Shown: piece by piece, positions 48,278 to 61,893 of the stretch
Numbering within the stretch: the stretch's first letter is position 1
Layout of the letters: each line of letters opens with the position of its first letter
Assembly: GCA_902825965.1 (NCBI GenBank)
Contig: CADEDA010000003.1
Location: 72,632 to 136,631, forward strand
Direction of reading: 5' to 3'
DNA: 64,000 nt
Source of the DNA: an uncultured Gemmatimonadota bacterium
GTDB lineage: Bacteria; Gemmatimonadota; Gemmatimonadetes; Gemmatimonadales; Gemmatimonadaceae
Notes under the pieces: model-generated
What the model saw: only the letters and a program-made list of their open reading frames with translations
Told to the model about the DNA's origin: nothing
Databases searched by the model: none
Made by a program: the position numbers and the translations under genes

Positions 48278-49261
48278 GTGACGACGCTCCCTCCGGGCTG
48301 GCCGATCTCCTTCGCTGATGTCGTGGCGGCGAGCGAGCGCCTGCAGCCGCACCTCACGCCCACGCCGTTGCGGGCGTACCCGCAGCTCGACGCCCTCGTG
48401 GGGCACGACATCCGTGTGTGGGTGAAGCACGAGAACCACCAACCCACGCAGTCGTTCAAGATCCGCAACGGTCTCAACGCGATCCTCGGGCGCAGCGCCG
48501 AGCAGCGCGGGGCCGGCGTGATCGGGGCGAGTACCGGCAATCACGGGCAGGGGGTGGCCTATGCCGGCCGCCTCACGCGTACGCCGGTGACGATCTGCGT
48601 GCCGCTGGGGAACAATCCGGCGAAGAACGACGCCATCCGCGCCCTCGGCGCGGAGTTGGTGGAGGTCGGGGACACCTACGACGAGACCGTGCGCGCCTGC
48701 CAGCAGATGGGCAAGGAGCGTGGGCTCGCGCTCGCGCACTCGACCAACGATCCGCTGGTGATCGCCGGGGCCGGCACCATGACGATGGAGATCCTCGACC
48801 AGGCCCCGGAGCTCGACGCGCTGGTGATCGCCCTCGGCGGTGGGTCGCAGTCCGTGGGGGCGATGACGGTGGCGGCGGCGCGGAAGCCCGGGCTCAAGGT
48901 CTACGCGGTGGGCGCGGCGGGCGCGCCGGCGCAGTACGAGAGCTGGACGCGCGGGGTGCGGCTGGAGGGCCAGCCGGCGAAGACCTTCGCCGAGGGCATC
49001 GCGACCGGGTCGGCGTACACGCTGACGTTCGACGCGCTGCGCGCGGGACTGGCGGGCTTCGTGACGGTGAGCGAAGCCGAGTTGTATCAGGCGGTGCGGG
49101 ACCTGATCCGCATCACGCGCAACCTGCCGGAGGGCGCCGGAGCCGCCGGCCTCGCCGGACTGCGGCGCCTCGCACCGGACCTGCGGGGGAAGCGCGTGGG
49201 GATCGTGATGTGCGGCGGCAATCTCAGCGACCGCGATCTGGCGATCGCGGTCGCTGGCTAG
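48278..49261 (+). CDS. Threonine/serine dehydratase-like PLP enzyme
   Basis: A 327-residue fold-type II PLP enzyme, GTG start. The Schiff-base lysine is K61 in TQSFKIRNG, with STGNHGQGVAYAG binding the cofactor carboxylate side. The phosphate loop reads GGGSQSVG where threonine dehydratases usually have GGGGL, so the specificity (threonine, serine, 3-hydroxyaspartate or other) is open. There is no C-terminal ACT regulatory domain, making it a catabolic-type or diverged member. It is cytosolic, 36 bases after csoR, and converges with the ridA-like gene (3-base gap). Confidence 0.87.
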   Translation: MTTLPPGWPISFADVVAASERLQPHLTPTPLRAYPQLDALVGHDIRVWVKHENHQPTQSFKIRNGLNAILGRSAEQRGAGVIGASTGNHGQGVAYAGRLTRTPVTICVPLGNNPAKNDAIRALGAELVEVGDTYDETVRACQQMGKERGLALAHSTNDPLVIAGAGTMTMEILDQAPELDALVIALGGGSQSVGAMTVAAARKPGLKVYAVGAAGAPAQYESWTRGVRLEGQPAKTFAEGIATGSAYTLTFDALRAGLAGFVTVSEAELYQAVRDLIRITRNLPEGAGAAGLAGLRRLAPDLRGKRVGIVMCGGNLSDRDLAIAVAG

Positions 49262-49264
49262 CCG

Positions 49265-49699
49265 TCACTTGCTCGGCATCGTCGCGATGCACTCGATCTC
49301 GAGCTTCGCGTTCGGCACCACGAGGGCCTTCACCACCACGGTGGTGCGCGCCGGCGGGGCACTCGGCCAGAACGTCGCATAGGCCTCGTTCATCCCGCGG
49401 AAGTCCGCGCCCTCGACGAGGAACACCGTGCACTTCACCGCGTGCTCCATCGTGGTGCCGGCCATCTCGAGCGTGCGCTTGAGGTTCTCGAGCGTGCTCT
49501 TGGTTTGACCCTGGATGGTGGTGTCGGCGTTGGCGCCGCGCGAGGGCAGGGCGCCCGAGGCGTAGACCATGTTGCCGACGCGGATCGCCGGCGTGAGGAC
49601 GGCGCTCGACTGGCCGATCGCCTCACGGGCCTGCGCAGAGAGCGGGCCAGCCACGACGGCGGTCAGCAGGACGGCACAGCACAGCGACGGGACACGCAT
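49265..49699 (-). CDS. Exported RidA/YjgF/UK114 family protein
   Basis: A 144-residue protein: signal peptide (residues 1-23, ending GPLSAQA) followed by a full RidA domain (VGNMVYASGALPS, TLENLKRTLEMAG, the catalytic Arg in PPARTTVVVKALVVPNAKLEIE). RidA hydrolyses reactive 2-imino/enamino acids to keto acids and ammonia, and most studied members are cytosolic. Here it follows a cytochrome c gene by 13 bases on the same strand, divergent from a Tat-exported FAD oxidoreductase, so its likely substrate is an imine made in the periplasm. Confidence 0.88.
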   Translation of the reverse strand: MRVPSLCCAVLLTAVVAGPLSAQAREAIGQSSAVLTPAIRVGNMVYASGALPSRGANADTTIQGQTKSTLENLKRTLEMAGTTMEHAVKCTVFLVEGADFRGMNEAYATFWPSAPPARTTVVVKALVVPNAKLEIECIATMPSK

Positions 49700-49712
49700 C
49701 AGAGACTCCGGG

Positions 49713-50267
49713 TCAACGAGGAGTGCCGCGCAGCGCGGCGGGGGAAGCGGCAGGGGACAGGGCGGACGCCGCCGGTGAGGCGGCAGGGAACGCGAGGCGG
49801 ATGAGCGCGAGACCGCTCGAGTCGGACGGGACCGCCGATGTACCCACCGGCATCCCGTTGACCTTCATGAGGTACGCAACGATCGATGCGTACGTTCCGA
49901 CCGAGAGCGAGCCCGGTTCATGCTCGGGCATCGTGGAGCGGATGAGCTCGAACAGGTCGAACGCGCTCCGTCCACCCCACTTGAGCCGGAAGTCGGCGTT
50001 GGCGAGCGATCCCACGGCGTGGCACTCGAGGCAGGCGGAGCGGAACCACTGTTCGCCGAGGTCGAGCTGCTTTGCCGCGTCAGCCGCCGCGGCGGCGGGG
50101 TCGGTCGGCGCGGGAGCCTGCGCGCGCAGCGGCGACGACGCGATGGCCGTGCTGAGCGTGACCACCGCGGCGACGGCCGCCGGAGCGCCGAACGCGGCGC
50201 AGTATGCGCGCAGGCCGGCCGTCAGCGGATGACCGGTGCACATCGTAAGAAATCGGAGGGAACGCAT
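49713..50267 (-). CDS. Periplasmic monohaem cytochrome c
   Basis: About 184 residues, with an N-terminal signal/anchor ending near SSPLRAQAP. One haem motif, C-L-E-C-H, lies near residue 81, and a candidate Met ligand in RSTMPEHEPGSLS. KWGGRSAFDLFELIRSTMP and VAYLMKVNGMPVG closely parallel the cytochrome at 58764-59243, showing the two are paralogues. The C-terminus is an Ala/Ser/Pro tail. The start is uncertain: ATG 50267 or ATG 50243; neither has a ribosome binding site. It heads a two-gene unit with the exported RidA and diverges from the FAD oxidoreductase. Confidence 0.85.
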   Translation of the reverse strand: MRSLRFLTMCTGHPLTAGLRAYCAAFGAPAAVAAVVTLSTAIASSPLRAQAPAPTDPAAAAADAAKQLDLGEQWFRSACLECHAVGSLANADFRLKWGGRSAFDLFELIRSTMPEHEPGSLSVGTYASIVAYLMKVNGMPVGTSAVPSDSSGLALIRLAFPAASPAASALSPAASPAALRGTPR

Positions 50268-50414
50268 CGCCGTGGAAGCTGACCGGGGCCCAGAGCGTCG
50301 GCAAGCCCTCTGCGCGATTGCCAAGCCCCGTCCGTGGAGCGAGTTTTTCGCTCGGACGACCACGCCTGCGGGCGTGGCGTGATGCACTCCTTCGACGCCC
50401 TCGCCCCCGCCGGA

Positions 50415-51848
50415 ATGTCGGACGCACCTGACAGCCTCGACGCGACCGTCGCCCGTCGCGATTTCCTCCGCCTCGCCGGACTCGGTACCGGTGCACTGCT
50501 CACCGGTGGTGTGCCGGCCACGGTCTCGGCCGCCGAGTCACTCGCGTCGCCGTCGCCCGTCCGAGCAGGCAAGGCCCGCGCGACCAGCCACATCATCGTC
50601 ATCGGTGCCGGCGCTTGGGGGGCGTTCACCTCCTGGCACCTGCGCAAGGCGGGCCACCGGGTGACGGTGATCGATCAATACGGCGTCGCCAACTCGCGAT
50701 CCACCAGCGGCGACGAGACGCGCGGCATCCGCTCGTCGTACGGCGATCGCACGCTGACGCCGGAGCTCTGGACGGCGTGGGCGCGCAAGAGCATCGAGCG
50801 CTGGCGCGAGTTCGACGCCGAGCACGGCAAGCGGTTCGGCACGCGGTACTTCTTCACCACGGGTGACGTGATCCTGCGCGAGAAGGCGGAGCCGTTCACC
50901 ACCAAGACGCTCGAGTTGTGGACCAAGCTCGGTGTGCGGCACGAGGTGCTGACCACCGACGAGGCCAAGCGCCGATGGCCGCAGATCAACGCGGACGGGC
51001 AGGGCATCGTGGTGTACGAACCCGATGCCGGCGTCGCGCGGGCGCGCGACTCCATCCAGGCAGTGGTCGCGCTGGGGCGGGACGCCGGTGTCGAGTTCCG
51101 GCTCGGCCGCGTGACCCCGGGGGCGATCGCGAACGGCCGGATGCAGGGCGTGACCCTCGGCGACGGTACCCGGCTCGAGGCGGACGCGTATGTGTTCTGC
51201 TGCGGCCCGTGGATGGAGAAGGTCCTGCCGATGGCGCTCAAGAACAAGACGCGCCTCCCGATCGGACACGTGTGCTACTTCGGCACGCCGATGGGCGACG
51301 ATCGGTTCACGTTCCCCAACCTCCCGACCTGGAACGTGCCCGGGGTCACCGGCTGGGCGGCGCTGCCGGTGGACAGCCGCGGGTTCCGCGTGCGCGGCGC
51401 GATCGCGCCGCCGGCGCCGCCGCGCGCCGCGGATGCGCCGCCGCCCCCACCTCCCACACCGGCGCCGGTCGACCCGCGGCAGCAGGACCCGGATCTCAGC
51501 TCGCGCTGGTCGAGCCAGGAGCGCATCGACGGATCGCGGCGTGTGCTCGCCAAGTACTTCCCGGCGCTGGCCGATGCACCGCTGCTGGAGACGCGCTCCT
51601 GCCACTACGAGAGCAGCGTGAACCGGAACTTCATCGTGGACCGCGTGCCCGGGGCGGAGAACGCCTGGATCGCGGGCCTCGGACAGGCCGAGGGGTTCAA
51701 GTTCTCGATCGTGATGGGCGAGTACGCCGCGTGGCGCGTGCTCGGCGACAGCGGCGACGCGACGATCGCCGAGGCGTTCCGGCTGCCGACGCAGGAATAC
51801 GACCCACAACCAGCGGCCACTGCGCCGCGCGGAGAGGACGACGCATGA
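50415..51848 (+). CDS. Tat-exported FAD-dependent amine oxidoreductase (DAO / sarcosine oxidase-like)
   Basis: A 477-residue flavoprotein. The twin-arginine signal ARRDFLRLAG is near residues 14-23, so the holo-enzyme is exported. The FAD dinucleotide motif HIIVIGAGAWGAFTSWHLRKAG follows, then GDETRGIRSSYGD as in monomeric sarcosine/N-methyltryptophan oxidases. Cys396 in ETRSCHYESSVNRNF lies where those enzymes attach FAD covalently, and GLGQAEGFKFSIVMGE matches their C-terminal FAD loop. A Pro/Ala-rich insert (about residues 331-357) is unusual. The start is ATG 50415, with 50382 possible. The stop overlaps the NHL gene (ATGA). Substrates would be secondary amines or amino acids. Confidence 0.87.
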   Translation: MSDAPDSLDATVARRDFLRLAGLGTGALLTGGVPATVSAAESLASPSPVRAGKARATSHIIVIGAGAWGAFTSWHLRKAGHRVTVIDQYGVANSRSTSGDETRGIRSSYGDRTLTPELWTAWARKSIERWREFDAEHGKRFGTRYFFTTGDVILREKAEPFTTKTLELWTKLGVRHEVLTTDEAKRRWPQINADGQGIVVYEPDAGVARARDSIQAVVALGRDAGVEFRLGRVTPGAIANGRMQGVTLGDGTRLEADAYVFCCGPWMEKVLPMALKNKTRLPIGHVCYFGTPMGDDRFTFPNLPTWNVPGVTGWAALPVDSRGFRVRGAIAPPAPPRAADAPPPPPPTPAPVDPRQQDPDLSSRWSSQERIDGSRRVLAKYFPALADAPLLETRSCHYESSVNRNFIVDRVPGAENAWIAGLGQAEGFKFSIVMGEYAAWRVLGDSGDATIAEAFRLPTQEYDPQPAATAPRGEDDA

Positions 51849-52933
51849 TGCGCCGCTCGCATGGCCTCGGATGGACGTTGACGGTGCTGCTCGCCGTCGG
51901 AACGGGTGCGCCGGACCTCGCGGCGCAGGCCGCCCCGGTCAACGACCGACCCAACCCGTACCGCACGGTGGAAGGCTGGGCCAAGCTCCCGGCCGGCCGC
52001 GTGTGGGGCTCGACGAGTGCCGTCGCGATCGACAAGGACGGCGAGAGCGTCTGGGTGGGCGAGCGCTGCGGGCAGAACAGCTGCGTGGGCTCGGACCTCG
52101 ACCCCGTGCTGTTGTTCGACAAGCACGGCACGCTGGTCCGTTCGTTCGGCAAGGGTATGGTGAACTGGCCGCACGGCATCCACGTCGACTTCGAGGGCAA
52201 CGTCTGGATCGTGGACGGCCGCGACAACAAGCCGGTGGTGCCGCGCAACGCGCCGGCGGATGCGCCCCCGCCGCCGATGCCGGCCCGCGTGTTCGGCCAC
52301 CAGGTGCTCAAGTTCTCGCCCACGGGCGAGTTGCTCATGCGGCTCGGCACCGACGGCGGTGCCCGCGAGCCCGGCTTCTTCTACCAGCCCAACGCGGTCT
52401 ACGTGGCGCCCAACGGCGACATCTTCGTGGCGGAGGGTCACGCCTCCGGTGCCGACGCCAACGCGCGCGTGCTCAAGTTCGACAAGTCGGGCAAGCTGCT
52501 CGCCAGCTGGGGCAAGAAGGGCACCGGGCCGGGCGAGTTCGACCAGCCGCACGCCCTGGCGATGGATTCGCAGGGGCGGCTCTTCGTCGGTGACCGCACC
52601 AACAACCGGATCCAGATCTTCTCGCAGGACGGTCGGCTGCTCGACACGTGGTTCCAGTTCTCCCGGGCCAGCGGGATCTTCATCGACAAGCAGGACAACA
52701 TCTACGTCGCGGACTCGGAGTCGGGATCGATCGCCCCGACGCGGCCCGAGTGGCAGCGTGGCATCCGTATCGGCAGCGCGCGCACGGGCGCGGTGACGGC
52801 GTTCATCCCCGACCCCGTGAAGGAGACGCGCAACACGAGCGCGGCCGAGGGCGTCGCCGTGGATGCCAAGGGCGTGATCTACGGGGCCGAGGTCGGTCCG
52901 CGCGCGCTCAAGCGGTACGAGAAGCAGCCCTGA
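51845..52933 (+). CDS. Secreted NHL-repeat beta-propeller protein (PAL-like)
   Basis: A 362-residue protein with a signal peptide ending PDLAAQ (about residue 28). NHL repeats are clear: NWPHGIHVDFEGNVWIVDG, YQPNAVYVAPNGDIFVAEG, DQPHALAMDSQGRLFVGDR and ASGIFIDKQDNIYVADS. The fold resembles peptidyl-hydroxyglycine amidating lyase and similar periplasmic propellers; lyase residues were not verified. Cys residues in GERCGQNSCVG may form a disulfide. It is coupled to the FAD oxidoreductase and is related in sequence to the propeller at 60694-61893. Confidence 0.87.
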   Translation: MMRRSHGLGWTLTVLLAVGTGAPDLAAQAAPVNDRPNPYRTVEGWAKLPAGRVWGSTSAVAIDKDGESVWVGERCGQNSCVGSDLDPVLLFDKHGTLVRSFGKGMVNWPHGIHVDFEGNVWIVDGRDNKPVVPRNAPADAPPPPMPARVFGHQVLKFSPTGELLMRLGTDGGAREPGFFYQPNAVYVAPNGDIFVAEGHASGADANARVLKFDKSGKLLASWGKKGTGPGEFDQPHALAMDSQGRLFVGDRTNNRIQIFSQDGRLLDTWFQFSRASGIFIDKQDNIYVADSESGSIAPTRPEWQRGIRIGSARTGAVTAFIPDPVKETRNTSAAEGVAVDAKGVIYGAEVGPRALKRYEKQP

Positions 52934-56559: not shown

Positions 56560-56584
56560 TAGGGCAGGCGCTTAGGGCAGGCGC
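56560..56584. repeat. 13-base tandem duplication across a stop codon
   Basis: TAGGGCAGGCGC occurs at 56560-56571 and again at 56573-56584, a period of 13. The duplication covers the last codons and stop of the PQQ dehydrogenase gene, leaving a second out-of-frame copy of its end downstream. Confidence 0.8.
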
Positions 56585-58767
56585 AGCGCCACCAGCGACG
56601 TGTTGGCGCCGGCGCCCATCGCGAAGACGATGTACTGCTTGCCCTTGTGCAGGAAGGTCATGGGCGCCGCCGTCGTGCGCGAGGGGATCTCCACCGCCCC
56701 CACCTGGCGCCCCGTGGCCTTGTCCACCGCGAAGAGCTGCGGCTTGGCATTGGGCACGCCACCGGACCGGCCGGTGCCGTAGATCACGAGCGACTTGGTG
56801 ACGATCACCTGGGCCTGACCGCCGGCGGCCCGCGGCGGCAGCTCCACTCCCGCGAACAGCGGGTCCGTGCTGCGCACCGGGATGAAGCCGCCGTTGGGGA
56901 TCCACCACTTCTTGTCCCCGCTGTTCATGTCGTACGCGGTGATGCCGCCGAGCTGCTTGGGCTTGAGGATGGAGACACCGCCGAGCATGGAGGCACTGCC
57001 GCGGCCCTCGAACCCCCCGCCGCGCGAGGCCGGTGGCGTGTAGCCCGGCGGCGGCGCGAGGGCGCCGATCAAGCCGCAGTTGTCGCGCGGCGAGCTGTAG
57101 CGGAACTCGCTGCAGGGATCCTTCTGCAGCGTGATCGTCGAGAGTCCACTGAGCGCGGCCACGTAGAGCATGCCGGTCTCGGGATCGAACGCGGCGCCAC
57201 CGTCGATGTTCACGCCACCCGAGGCACCGGGTGCGTACCAGGCGCAGCGCAGTCCGCCCTGCGACGATCCGTCGGAGGTGGTCGCGGGGATGTAGTACGG
57301 TCCCATGCGGCAGCGCTGCGCCATCTTGAGCGCGCTGTCCTTGATGGCGGGTGTGTAGTCGATGAGGTCCGACTCGAGCAGCCCCTGCTGCGCGTACGGC
57401 GCCGGCCTGGACGGGATGGGCTGCGTCGGCGAGGTCTTCTCCCCGGGCACGTCGCTCTGCAGCACCGGGGTCTCGACGATCGGCCAGATCGGCTCGCCGG
57501 TGACCCGGTCGAAGGTGTAGAGCCAGCCCTGCTTGGTGCTCTGCGTGATCGCCTTGCGGCGCGTGCCGTTCACCGTCACGTCGATCAGGTTGGGCGCCAT
57601 CGGCGTGTCGTAGTCCCAGATGTCGTGGTGCACCATCTGGAAGTGCCACTTCCGCTTGCCGGACTTGGCGTCGAGCGCGACGAGCGAGTTGCCGTAGAGG
57701 TTGTTGCCCGGCCGATGTCCGCCGTACTCGTCCATGAGCGGCATGCCCACGGGGATGTACACGGTGTTGAGTTCCGGGTCGGCCGAGTAGGTGGCCCAGG
57801 CGTCGTTCTTGCCGACGCCCTCGCTGCCGATCTTGGACCCGTTCTCCCACGTCTCCGCGCCGAACTCGCCCGGCTGGGGCACGAGGTTGAACTTCCAGAG
57901 CTGCCGGCCGGTCCGGAGGTCGAAGCCGCGGATGAAGCCGGGGATGTTGCGGACGCGGATGGGATAGTAGCCGTGGATGGACGAGTTGCCGACGACGATC
58001 ACGTCATTCACGACGATCGCCGGTGAGGAGGCGGCGATCTGGCCGTTCACGGGATCGATCCCCACCGTGCCGTCGGCGCCGATCTTCTTCACGGGATCCC
58101 AGGTCTCGCCGGGCTTGGCGCGACGTGCCGGTGCGGCGTCCGAGATGATCAGCGAGCCGGAGTCGTCCACGGCGAGTGGCACCAGCGGGTAGCCCAGTCC
58201 GTCCATCAGGTCGACCACGCCGTTCTTCCCGAACTTGGGATCGGGCACGCCGGTCCTGGCGTCGAGCGACACCATATGGTAGCCCGGCGTGACGACGATC
58301 ACGCGCTCGTCCTTGCCGTCGGTCCAGTAGGTGGGGCCGCGGCCCGCGAACTGCCGTGGGGCCTTCTGCCAGCGGATGCCTTCCTCGAGGCGATACATCC
58401 AGAGCGTCTCGCCCGTCTCGGGGTCGATCGCCATCACCGATCGCCGCGTGGTGGCGACGGTGAAGAGGCGGCCGTTGGCGTAGAGCGGCGTGGTACGGTA
58501 GTACTCGTCGGGTCCGAAGGTCCCGGCATTCCACTGCCAGGCCATCTTGAGCGAGCCGAAGTTGTCGGCGTTGATCTGGTCGAGCGGCGAGTAGCGCGTG
58601 CTGAAGGCATCGCCGCCCCAGTAGCGCCACTCCCCCGGCGCGTTGCCGCGCACGAGGCCGGTCATCACGGGAGCGGCGCCGCCCGGTGCACTCACCGGCC
58701 GCGGGGACTGCGCCGGCACGATCAGCGGCGCGACGAGAAGGGCGAAGGCGAGTGCTCGGCGGATCAT
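56572..58767 (-). CDS. PQQ-dependent membrane-type/periplasmic dehydrogenase (quinoprotein)
   Basis: A 731-residue eight-bladed quinoprotein with signal peptide (residues 1-19, ending IVPAQS). Trp-docking repeats are plain: GNAPGEWRYWGGDAFSTRYS, TTPLYANGRLFTVATTRRSVMAIDPETGETLW, SLVALDAKSGKRKWHFQMVHHDIWDYD and GGVNIDGGAAFDPETGMLYV. It would oxidise an alcohol, aldose or polyol in the periplasm with PQQ. No fused cytochrome domain and no vicinal Cys pair are visible; electrons presumably go to the cytochrome encoded directly upstream, whose stop overlaps this ATG. Confidence 0.92.
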   Translation of the reverse strand: MIRRALAFALLVAPLIVPAQSPRPVSAPGGAAPVMTGLVRGNAPGEWRYWGGDAFSTRYSPLDQINADNFGSLKMAWQWNAGTFGPDEYYRTTPLYANGRLFTVATTRRSVMAIDPETGETLWMYRLEEGIRWQKAPRQFAGRGPTYWTDGKDERVIVVTPGYHMVSLDARTGVPDPKFGKNGVVDLMDGLGYPLVPLAVDDSGSLIISDAAPARRAKPGETWDPVKKIGADGTVGIDPVNGQIAASSPAIVVNDVIVVGNSSIHGYYPIRVRNIPGFIRGFDLRTGRQLWKFNLVPQPGEFGAETWENGSKIGSEGVGKNDAWATYSADPELNTVYIPVGMPLMDEYGGHRPGNNLYGNSLVALDAKSGKRKWHFQMVHHDIWDYDTPMAPNLIDVTVNGTRRKAITQSTKQGWLYTFDRVTGEPIWPIVETPVLQSDVPGEKTSPTQPIPSRPAPYAQQGLLESDLIDYTPAIKDSALKMAQRCRMGPYYIPATTSDGSSQGGLRCAWYAPGASGGVNIDGGAAFDPETGMLYVAALSGLSTITLQKDPCSEFRYSSPRDNCGLIGALAPPPGYTPPASRGGGFEGRGSASMLGGVSILKPKQLGGITAYDMNSGDKKWWIPNGGFIPVRSTDPLFAGVELPPRAAGGQAQVIVTKSLVIYGTGRSGGVPNAKPQLFAVDKATGRQVGAVEIPSRTTAAPMTFLHKGKQYIVFAMGAGANTSLVALRLP

Positions 58768-59243
58768 CGGCGGGGACTCTTGGTGGGAGGGGCGGAGCGG
58801 ACCGAGTCGAGACGGATACTGTGCAACAGACTGGAGTCGGCGGCCAGTGGCTCGTTGCCCGCCGGCATGCCATTGATGCGGAGCAGGTAGGCGAGGGCGA
58901 GGGCGTAGTCCTCGTCGCTCATCGAACCGGGGTCGCTCTTGGGCATCTCGCGGCGGAGATACCCGAACAGCTCGCCGAGCGTGCGCCCGTACCACTTGTT
59001 CTTGAATGGCGGACCGGCGTGTACGGTGGGCGTGTGGCAGTTGCGGCAGTAGGCCGCGAAGATGTCCGCACCGTCCGTGGCCTGCTGGTCGGTGTAGACG
59101 CTGTCCATCGTGGTGCGTGGCGCCGACGGTCGCTGTGCCTGCGACCGCGGGTGCGGCGGGTCCGTGGCGGGAGTGCGGGAGGCGGCTGTCGCGACGAACG
59201 CGGCGAGGCCGAGCGGCAACAGCAGGCGGCGGGAGACAGGCAC
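58764..59243 (-). CDS. Periplasmic monohaem cytochrome c partner of the PQQ dehydrogenase
   Basis: A 159-residue cytochrome (GTG start 59243) with a short signal containing SRRLLLPLGLAAFVATAA. The haem site C-R-N-C-H is at about residue 63, with a likely Met ligand in RREMPKSDPGSMS. KWYGRTLGELFGYLRREMP and LAYLLRINGMPAGNEPLAADSS align with the cytochrome at 49713-50267. Its stop overlaps the quinoprotein start (ATGA), so the two are made together and this is the natural electron acceptor. Confidence 0.9.
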   Translation of the reverse strand: MPVSRRLLLPLGLAAFVATAASRTPATDPPHPRSQAQRPSAPRTTMDSVYTDQQATDGADIFAAYCRNCHTPTVHAGPPFKNKWYGRTLGELFGYLRREMPKSDPGSMSDEDYALALAYLLRINGMPAGNEPLAADSSLLHSIRLDSVRSAPPTKSPRR

Positions 59244-59284
59244 TGGGAAGGGAACAGGGTTCGGCGAACGGTCCGCGGCGCGCG

Positions 59285-60628
59285 TCAGGACCGACGCAGG
59301 ATCTGCAGAATCTGTCGCATGGCGAGGGCGAGGGCCAATGCCACGGCAAGCAACAGCGCCGCACGCATGGCCCCGAGGGCGAAGTGGGCGTCGAGTGCCG
59401 GCCAGGCGAAGTTCGCGCGATGCGCCGCGAGTTCGCTGCCGCGCGCGGTCATCCAGTGCCACGCGGCGTGGGCGACGATGGCCGATCCCACGATGGTGAG
59501 CAGGCGCTCGCGACCCGCACCGACGTAGCGCCGCGCCAGCCAGAGCAGCGGCACGGCGAGCGCGAGCACGGCGAGTTGGCCGGCCTCCACGCCGACGTTG
59601 AACGCGGCCAGCGCGGTGACGAGGTTCCCGCCGGCGAACTGCAAGGTCTCGCCGAGCGCGAACGAGAATCCGAACCCGTGGATCAGGCCGAACGCGAACG
59701 CCAGCGGCCAGCGCGCCGCCAGCCGTTCCTCGCCCAACACGAAGTTCTCGACCGTGAGCCACACGATGGAGGCGGCGATCAGCGTCTCGACCAGGGGCGG
59801 GAACCACAGCGCAGCGGGGGTGAACCCGAGGGCCGCTGCCCCCAGCGTGAGCGAGTGGGCGACCGTGAAGGCCGTGATGATGGTCACCAGCGACTGCCAG
59901 CGGCGCAGGGGCAGCACGAGGCAGAGCACGAACAGCAGGTGGTCGATGCCGCCGAGGATGTGGAAGAAGCCCTCGCGGAGGAACTGTCCGAAGGTCTGGT
60001 ACCAGGCCGGCGCCAACGCGACGGCCTCGGGGTCACCCTGATAGGTCAGCACCCGTGCCGCGCCGTCCGCATCGACGAGGTGCACCACACTCACCGTGCG
60101 CACGCCGAGGTGCGCCAGCGCCGGATGCAACACCAGTCGTGCATCGTCGCGGGGCAGGCGATACTCGAGCGCGACGTCGAACAGCGCCTGTTGCCAGGGC
60201 AGCCGCTCCACCTCGAGCAACGGCGCGGTGAACACCGCGCGGGCGGTCGCCAAGGACTCGAACGCGCGGTCGTTGGGCAGTGCCAGCCGCGCGCCGGTCA
60301 CGCGCGGGGCGTCGAGGGTCTGCCCGTCGGCCGTGATCCGGAGCCCCTCGACGAGCCAGAGCTGCGCGGTCTGCGGCAGCAACGCACGCACGCGGACCAG
60401 GTCGAGCGACCCGTCGTCGCGCAGCGGGAAGTCCACGTCGCGCATGGCCTCCAGCGGCACCCGCAACCACACGCGCAGCACGCCGGCGTCGGGCTGCACG
60501 AAGGCGCGGATGGCCACACGTTCCGGCACCTCGTGCGACGCCAGCGGCGCAGCGCGGCCGAGCAGCAGCACGACGGCGAGGAGCACGGCGCCGAGGGCCC
60601 GACGGGGGGAGCGCGGTCTCTGGTGCAT
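59285..60628 (-). CDS. HupE/UreJ-2-like membrane protein
   Basis: A 447-residue protein: signal or first helix (residues about 13-35), an exported domain of about 180 residues beginning SHEVPERVAIRAFVQPD, then seven or so membrane helices. The helices carry the HupE/UreJ-2 motifs HILGGIDHLLFVLCLVLPL, FTVAHSLTLG and FGLIHGFGFSFALGE, whose His/Asp residues may bind a metal ion. Relatives are associated with nickel, copper or hydrogenase/urease metal supply, but here it heads an operon with a cytochrome c and a PQQ dehydrogenase. The start is ATG 60628; 60649 is also in frame. Confidence 0.85.
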   Translation of the reverse strand: MHQRPRSPRRALGAVLLAVVLLLGRAAPLASHEVPERVAIRAFVQPDAGVLRVWLRVPLEAMRDVDFPLRDDGSLDLVRVRALLPQTAQLWLVEGLRITADGQTLDAPRVTGARLALPNDRAFESLATARAVFTAPLLEVERLPWQQALFDVALEYRLPRDDARLVLHPALAHLGVRTVSVVHLVDADGAARVLTYQGDPEAVALAPAWYQTFGQFLREGFFHILGGIDHLLFVLCLVLPLRRWQSLVTIITAFTVAHSLTLGAAALGFTPAALWFPPLVETLIAASIVWLTVENFVLGEERLAARWPLAFAFGLIHGFGFSFALGETLQFAGGNLVTALAAFNVGVEAGQLAVLALAVPLLWLARRYVGAGRERLLTIVGSAIVAHAAWHWMTARGSELAAHRANFAWPALDAHFALGAMRAALLLAVALALALAMRQILQILRRS

Positions 60629-60693
60629 CAGGGTCGAGAGATATAGCATTGGTCGCAGTTTCGCACGGCCCTACGCCCCCATCGGAGAACGAG

Positions 60694-61893
60694 ATGGCAC
60701 GGAAGAGAACGCTTTGGACCGCCGCGGTGTTGGGTGCGGTGATCGTTTCGCTCGCCGTCGGGCAGCGGCAGTTGGCCGCGGACCTCGAGCGCCAGGCGGT
60801 GATGGCGCCGGTGTTCGAGGTCGATCCCTACTGGCCCAAGCCGCTGCCCAACGGCTGGCTGCTCGGTTCCACCATCGGCGTCGGCGTGGACTCCCGTGAC
60901 CATGTGTTCATCATCCATCGCGGCAATGCGACGCTGAACGCGCGCACCGAGGGCGGATATCCGCTCACCGGACCCTGCTGCAGCGGCGCGCCGCCCGTGC
61001 TGGAGTTCGACCCCGAGGGCAATCTCGTGAACTCCTGGGGCGGCCCGGGCGACGGCTACCAGTGGCCGAGCAGCAATCACGGCATCACGCTCGACCATCT
61101 CGACAACGTGTGGATCGGCGGCAATGGCACGCCCGATTCGACGCGGGGCATCGGGTTCGACTCGCACATCCTCAAGTTCTCGCACGACGGCAAGTTCCTG
61201 CAGCAGATCGGGGTCCCCGGGCGCCGCGCGGACTCCAAGTCGATGGACTCGTTCGGCCGCGTCGCCAAGGTGGCGTTCGATGCGAAGGCCAACGAGGCCT
61301 ACGTCGCCGACGGGTACGGCAACCGTCGCGTCGCGGTGATCGACATGACGAGCGGGGCGATCAAGCGCTTCTGGGGCGCGTACGGCAACGTGCCCAGCGA
61401 CTCCAACTACGGACCGTATCGTCCGGACGCGCCGCTCATCCCGCAGTTCCGCACGCCGGTGCACTGCGCCGAACCCACGACGGATGGGCTCGTGTACGTG
61501 TGCGACCGCGTGAACAACCGGATCCAGGTGTTCAGCAAGGATGGCAAGTTCGTGAAGGAGAAGCAGGTCGCGCCGCGGACGATGGGCGACGGGGCGGTGT
61601 GGGACATCGCGTTCTCGCGGGATGCGGCGCAGCAGTACCTCTACCTCGCCGACGGCAAGAACGAGCGCGTGTACGTGATGGACCGCCAGTCGCTCGAGAT
61701 CCTCACGGCCTTCGGGGACGGGGGACGGCAGCCGGGGCAGTTCTTCGCGGTGCACTCCATCGCGACCGATTCCAAGGGCAACATCTTCACGACCGAGACC
61801 TACGAGGGCAAACGCGTGCAGCGCTTCGTATACAAGGGCATCCGGGCGGTGAGCAAGAAGGATCAGGGCGCGCCGTGGCCGGGGAGACAATGA
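60694..61893 (+). CDS. Secreted NHL/6-bladed beta-propeller protein
   Basis: A 399-residue protein (ATG 60694, GGAGA upstream) with an N-terminal helix (residues 6-22). Propeller strands include PLPNGWLLGSTIGVGVDS, PPVLEFDPEGNLVNSWGG, NHGITLDHLDNVWIGG, NEAYVADGYGNRRVAVID and VCDRVNNRIQVFSKDGKF. A Cys-Cys pair occurs in TGPCCSGAPP. It is related to the propeller at 51845-52933 and diverges from the HupE-cytochrome-PQQ operon across 65 bases. It could be a substrate-binding or lyase partner of the quinoprotein; no catalytic proof. Confidence 0.83.
   Translation: MARKRTLWTAAVLGAVIVSLAVGQRQLAADLERQAVMAPVFEVDPYWPKPLPNGWLLGSTIGVGVDSRDHVFIIHRGNATLNARTEGGYPLTGPCCSGAPPVLEFDPEGNLVNSWGGPGDGYQWPSSNHGITLDHLDNVWIGGNGTPDSTRGIGFDSHILKFSHDGKFLQQIGVPGRRADSKSMDSFGRVAKVAFDAKANEAYVADGYGNRRVAVIDMTSGAIKRFWGAYGNVPSDSNYGPYRPDAPLIPQFRTPVHCAEPTTDGLVYVCDRVNNRIQVFSKDGKFVKEKQVAPRTMGDGAVWDIAFSRDAAQQYLYLADGKNERVYVMDRQSLEILTAFGDGGRQPGQFFAVHSIATDSKGNIFTTETYEGKRVQRFVYKGIRAVSKKDQGAPWPGRQ

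Follow-up and report, generated by a model that had tools for sequence, protein, structure and literature searches.

In the NicA2/Pnao-CycN systems, a flavin-dependent amine enzyme with a twin-arginine translocation (Tat) signal is encoded alongside a cytochrome c exported via the general secretory (Sec) route, and respiratory use of the electrons has been proposed (PMC9396064, PMC12224317). These systems are the precedent for an electron path from a flavoprotein to a cytochrome (PMC9396064). In a 2025 survey, which mentions neither sarcosine nor RidA, a Tat signal together with an operonic CytC was found to be a good predictor of dehydrogenase activity among enzymes of the monoamine oxidase (MAO) type (PMC12224317). 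Rid genes, in turn, cluster with flavin adenine dinucleotide (FAD) amine oxidases, the imines of which are hydrolysed by RidA in vitro, as described in a study where signal peptide and periplasm are nowhere mentioned (PMC4433059). Here, we describe a locus encoding an exported RidA, a monohaem cytochrome c, a Tat-signal flavoprotein and an NHL propeller, located at positions 49265 to 52933 of a 64,000-nucleotide stretch of contig CADEDA010000003.1 (the window) from an uncultured member of the Gemmatimonadaceae. The host genome, a metagenome-assembled genome (MAG) made up of 73 contigs that total 4.07 Mb, has a completeness of 95% and belongs to the Gemmatimonadota, a common, little-studied phylum of soil and freshwater.

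We consider it probable that the locus specifies a cytochrome-c-dependent periplasmic dehydrogenase of amino acids (or amines), whose imine product is hydrolysed by the exported RidA. This reading is built on gene linkage, export signals, fold, active-site residues, and a Lys-to-Arg replacement pattern with its correlation with the cytochrome; dehydrogenase activity, the electron path and an imine as the RidA substrate are what we infer from them. The features of the locus are as follows.

49265 to 49699, minus strand: ridA, a predicted Rid-family imine deaminase of 144 amino acids with a Sec signal (PF01042, 92.9 bits, cut-off 27.3; MRVPSLCCAVLLTAVVAGPLSAQA)

49713 to 50267, minus strand: monohaem, class-I-like cytochrome c, the proposed electron acceptor, with a single CLECH, a signal peptide and its ATG at 50267 (PF13442, 27.6 bits, barely above the cut-off of 27.0)

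50268 to 50414, no strand: divergent intergenic region, presumed from the layout to be a bidirectional promoter for ridA/cytochrome and flavoprotein/NHL

50415 to 51848, plus strand: Tat-signal flavoprotein (DAO) with the fold of monomeric sarcosine oxidase (MSOX), the proposed cytochrome-dependent amine/amino-acid dehydrogenase (PF01266, 139.2 bits; Tat motif RRDFLRLAG; alternative start at 50382)

51845 to 52933, plus strand: six-bladed NHL propeller with a Sec signal (PF01436, 72.5 bits)

The cytochrome c gene and ridA are separated by exactly 13 bases, and the ATG of the NHL gene overlaps the stop codon of the flavoprotein gene (ATGATG). N-terminal export signals were predicted for all four products, of the Sec type for RidA, the cytochrome and the NHL protein and of the Tat type for the flavoprotein, as judged from the sequence, a crude hydrophobicity score and conservation in orthologues. 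Four adjacent genes, each with an export signal, had been described in an earlier note on this DNA, and the checked coordinates, Pfam matches and N-termini bear this out. Since gene order and export signals are kept in many genomes, the arrangement is more than chance.

A profile of 39 flavoprotein members revealed MSOX to be the best match (E 5e-41), and comparison of an AlphaFold model (predicted local distance difference test, pLDDT, 90) with MSOX predicted a closely similar fold (Z 42.5; root-mean-square deviation 2.4; ~366 residues). By residue count in the profile alignment, Arg49, Arg52, Cys315, Tyr317 and Lys348 of MSOX correspond to the invariant flavoprotein residues R50, R53, C343, Y345 and K376. 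Fold and these residues are thus what the family has in common with MSOX and N-methyltryptophan oxidase (MTOX). On the basis of the retained residues, the flavoprotein probably carries cysteinyl FAD, and its substrate is predicted to bear a carboxylate; an N-methyl amino acid would be just one candidate.

Unlike MSOX and MTOX, the family possesses a Tat signal, with the twin-arginine motif RRxF present in 41 of 41 aligned members, as well as a cytochrome partner, and it departs from MSOX at two active-site positions. MSOX Tyr254 aligns with an invariant Trp, so that the substrate pocket would be unlike that of sarcosine oxidase, and the oxygen-activating Lys265 aligns with R272, a position occupied by Arg in all 41 members (motif GFRVR). 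The scores against curated subfamily models were below the cut-offs (TIGR01377, 96.2 versus 479.65 bits; NF008425, 153.3 versus 257 bits). The structure matches included 3m12, the Lys265Arg mutant of MSOX, a replacement that reportedly slows the reaction with O2 about 250-fold. Changes of the matching Lys in K265M of MSOX and K304A of FsqB lowered O2 reactivity (PMC7312611, PMC6222107).

An internal comparison was provided by a second MSOX-like subfamily of the same phylum, which was split off in the family search (L108-L127; 20 loci read) and is separated from the flavoprotein family with a FastTree support of 1.0. Many of its members likewise have a twin-arginine start. The position of Lys265 is Lys in 20/20 of these sister proteins, and a cytochrome c gene was found near none of them (0/20 loci read); CXXCH matches beside the sister gene L108 turned out to be spurious once translated. 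Given 41/41 Arg in the family with cytochrome neighbours, an Arg oxygen site is accompanied by a cytochrome and a Lys site is not, this being a correlation of two clades, not of many independent events. The sister proteins are perhaps exported true oxidases.

To assess the gene neighbourhood, RidA and the flavoprotein were searched in 246 genomes of the class, and wide loci around the matches were inspected. In total, 43 distinct flavoprotein loci were counted (L089, a repeat of L048, was counted once). The DAO extents given by tblastn are overlong due to extended frames, and negative gene distances there denote adjacency, not overlap. In 27 of the 43 loci (the window and 26 more), a gene of the cytochrome family directly adjoins that of the flavoprotein, and in 19, RidA adjoins the flavoprotein or is one gene off, in divergent as well as same-strand layouts. 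The divergent form, with RidA-cytochrome on one strand and flavoprotein-NHL on the other, is that of the window's family; another family has either the single-strand order RidA-flavoprotein-CstA (six loci) or cytochrome-flavoprotein, and in one genus RidA and the flavoprotein share a contig but are ~14 kb apart. Every found member of the cytochrome family has one CXXCH and an export signal, with a lipobox in many members of the second family. Within the window's family, a RidA orthologue is present in 22 genomes, and all 22 also encode the flavoprotein, versus 27/60 overall (Fisher p 6e-12 by genome, a value inflated by shared ancestry, and 5e-4 by genus). The genes are hence adjacent in related genomes, as the earlier note had expected, in more than one arrangement. 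Its four-gene grouping holds as far as conserved linkage is concerned; it does not hold in that the commonest direct neighbour is the cytochrome, not RidA, and in that many genomes have ridA elsewhere or lack it.

An export signal, by Sec or lipobox, was predicted for RidA in 24/24 orthologues with a readable N-terminus, in agreement with the export postulated before. This number comprises 18 Sec signals, carried by every orthologue from the window's family and order that could be read at the N-terminus, and six lipobox orthologues (6/6) of the second family. Five of the latter show a complete signal in their modelled sequence; the sixth, from L072, has the lipobox only, because its start codon is uncertain and the start chosen in the model fails the crude hydrophobicity score. 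RidA of L056 was left out of the count because of start choice. As the type of export switches between Sec and lipoprotein while export itself persists, there is strong sequence-derived evidence that the subcellular location of RidA matters. R118, equivalent to the catalytic Arg R105 of Escherichia coli, and E134/E136 are invariant in 25 orthologues. The host has six Rid genes in total, of which four look cytosolic, having no signals, and one besides the ridA of the window encodes an exported lipoprotein. This second exported RidA (L004, G000:C4:176190-176621; lipobox LLVATGC) adjoins a signal peptidase I-like gene.

According to the proposed mechanism, the flavoprotein would fold in the cytoplasm with covalent FAD and then be exported via Tat. 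In the periplasm, it would oxidise a carboxylate-bearing amine, either an amino acid or an N-alkyl amino acid, to the imine. The reduced flavin would be poorly re-oxidised by O2 because of Arg at the Lys265 position, and its two electrons would pass singly to the monohaem cytochrome c encoded next door, from which a haem-copper oxidase would receive them; TatC and COX1 are encoded by the host. Hydrolysis of the imine, yielding an oxo-acid and ammonia, would be sped up by the exported RidA. The view of the earlier note, that periplasmic imine detoxification is coupled to respiration, gains support from the neighbouring genes in relatives, the conserved RidA export and the Lys-to-Arg pattern.

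Compared with the known systems, the locus resembles NicA2/Pnao-CycN in its Tat-signal flavin enzyme and the Sec-signal cytochrome c encoded alongside. It differs in the MSOX/DAO fold (PF01266) and the probable cysteinyl FAD, versus the MAO type, and in the presence of the exported RidA and the NHL propeller. Membership in the CycN-dependent MAO-type family was rejected, with PF01266 as the best model, no MAO-type model listed and MSOX as the nearest solved structure. Known clusters of RidA with amine oxidases or dehydrogenases that use FAD (PMC4433059; DauA study, PMC5619798) share with the present locus both the pairing of a Rid gene with such an enzyme and the catalytic Arg, but here, both RidA and the flavoprotein carry export signals. 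Most likely, the system functions like NicA2-CycN yet stands outside that family, and its enzyme has the MSOX fold yet is devoid of the MSOX oxygen lysine.

Beyond the core, window positions 56572-61893 contain the genes of a pyrroloquinoline quinone (PQQ) dehydrogenase, a paralogous cytochrome c (ATGA overlap), a HupE/UreJ_2-type membrane protein and a second NHL protein. Two of these features are relevant below.

56572 to 58767, minus strand: PQQ-type quinoprotein dehydrogenase of the conserved neighbouring module (PF01011 on its orthologue; gene cluster c4)

58764 to 59237, minus strand: paralogous monohaem cytochrome c of the same module, partner of the PQQ dehydrogenase, outside the core

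The module recurs next to the flavoprotein cluster in several genomes, so that these bacteria appear to keep the genes of periplasmic dehydrogenases together, each with a cytochrome of its own.

The flavoprotein might instead be an ordinary exported, O2-using oxidase of the MSOX/MTOX type, the cytochrome serving another enzyme, e.g., the PQQ dehydrogenase, and being present by chance or due to general periplasmic regulation. MSOX/MTOX as the nearest solved family, the close-by PQQ dehydrogenase-cytochrome module and the 16 of 43 loci without an adjoining cytochrome conform with this explanation. We regard it as unlikely, considering that the PQQ dehydrogenase owns a paralogous cytochrome, that other families contain flavoprotein-cytochrome pairs where the PQQ gene is absent (L076-L078, L083, L084) and that the O2-activating Lys is changed to Arg throughout the family versus Lys throughout the sister group. 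RidA could also be unrelated to the flavoprotein and act as the partner of the threonine/serine dehydratase encoded at 48278-49261. This pyridoxal phosphate (PLP) enzyme directly adjoins ridA in convergent orientation, with 3 bases between the stops, and PLP dehydratase-type enzymes, with which Rid genes cluster, are the classical Rid partner (PMC4433059). The dehydratase, however, lacks an export signal, unlike RidA, and it is found beside or near ridA in close relatives only (L048, L087, L088, L090); the flavoprotein keeps with ridA in G209, G008, G201, G138, G221, G093, G156 and another family. In addition, the host has the four signal-free Rid genes. The dehydratase partnership is, therefore, highly improbable and was rejected on grounds of compartment and weaker synteny.

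A third possibility would be compatible with the proposed dehydrogenase, namely that small amino acids are converted to an oxo-acid, e.g., pyruvate, for a CstA-type carrier, so that the system would serve carbon/nitrogen acquisition, not detoxification. The row RidA-flavoprotein-CstA on one strand in the six loci of the other family, neighbouring RidA and CstA in G072 (L067-L072 and L064 for both arrangements together), and retention of Arg52 and Lys348 (MSOX numbering) in the flavoprotein speak for it, as does the import of pyruvate by CstA in E. coli (PMC5847655, PMC7730263). CstA beside RidA, with or without the flavoprotein, hints at an oxo-acid such as pyruvate as the product. CstA, however, takes up peptides, too, is unlinked in the window's genome, and is found in loci without an adjoining cytochrome; furthermore, MSOX-type enzymes usually favour secondary amines. 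We thus consider acquisition conceivable but doubtful.

Several observations weigh against the cytochrome-dependent dehydrogenase with its exported RidA. Arg retains the positive charge of Lys, and hence some O2 reactivity is to be expected; in the 16 loci without an adjoining cytochrome, Arg is nevertheless kept wherever aligned. The canonical active-site Tyr of the YxQ motif of RidA is replaced by Leu in the window's family and by Phe in the other, and the protein scores 81.9 bits, below the TIGR00004 cut-off of 106.25. Co-occurrence of RidA and flavoprotein is confounded by phylogeny (p 5e-4 at genus level), and the displacement or absence of ridA in many genomes counts on the same side.

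Within Gemmatimonadota, the flavoprotein family is widespread. The search of the phylum listed no match from beyond the class; outside the phylum, a scan of genome contigs gave Gemmatimonadota MAGs alone, and plasmids gave one distant match. The dehydrogenase reading would extend the recent finding of cytochrome-using dehydrogenases among 'amine oxidases' to a second flavoprotein fold, and it points to Rid-type imine hydrolysis outside the cytosol as well. In its broader form, the proposal is that cytochrome-c-dependent amine dehydrogenases have a second lineage, independent of the known one and represented by this family with its MSOX fold; Lys-to-Arg replacement at the oxygen site would accompany cytochrome pairing, and a dedicated exported RidA would carry out periplasmic imine hydrolysis. 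We put this forward tentatively, as slightly less likely than not. The Arg and Lys subfamilies offer a natural comparison to probe what governs oxygen reactivity.

The NHL orthologues are 56-91% identical and contain several invariant His and Arg residues. By fold, the modelled NHL protein matched peptidyl-alpha-hydroxyglycine amidating lyase (PAL; 3fvz, Z 33.7) and Thin NHL (6xg7, Z 33.4) equally well. If this translationally coupled protein is a PAL-like lyase, its substrate could be the flavoprotein product in the carbinolamine form.

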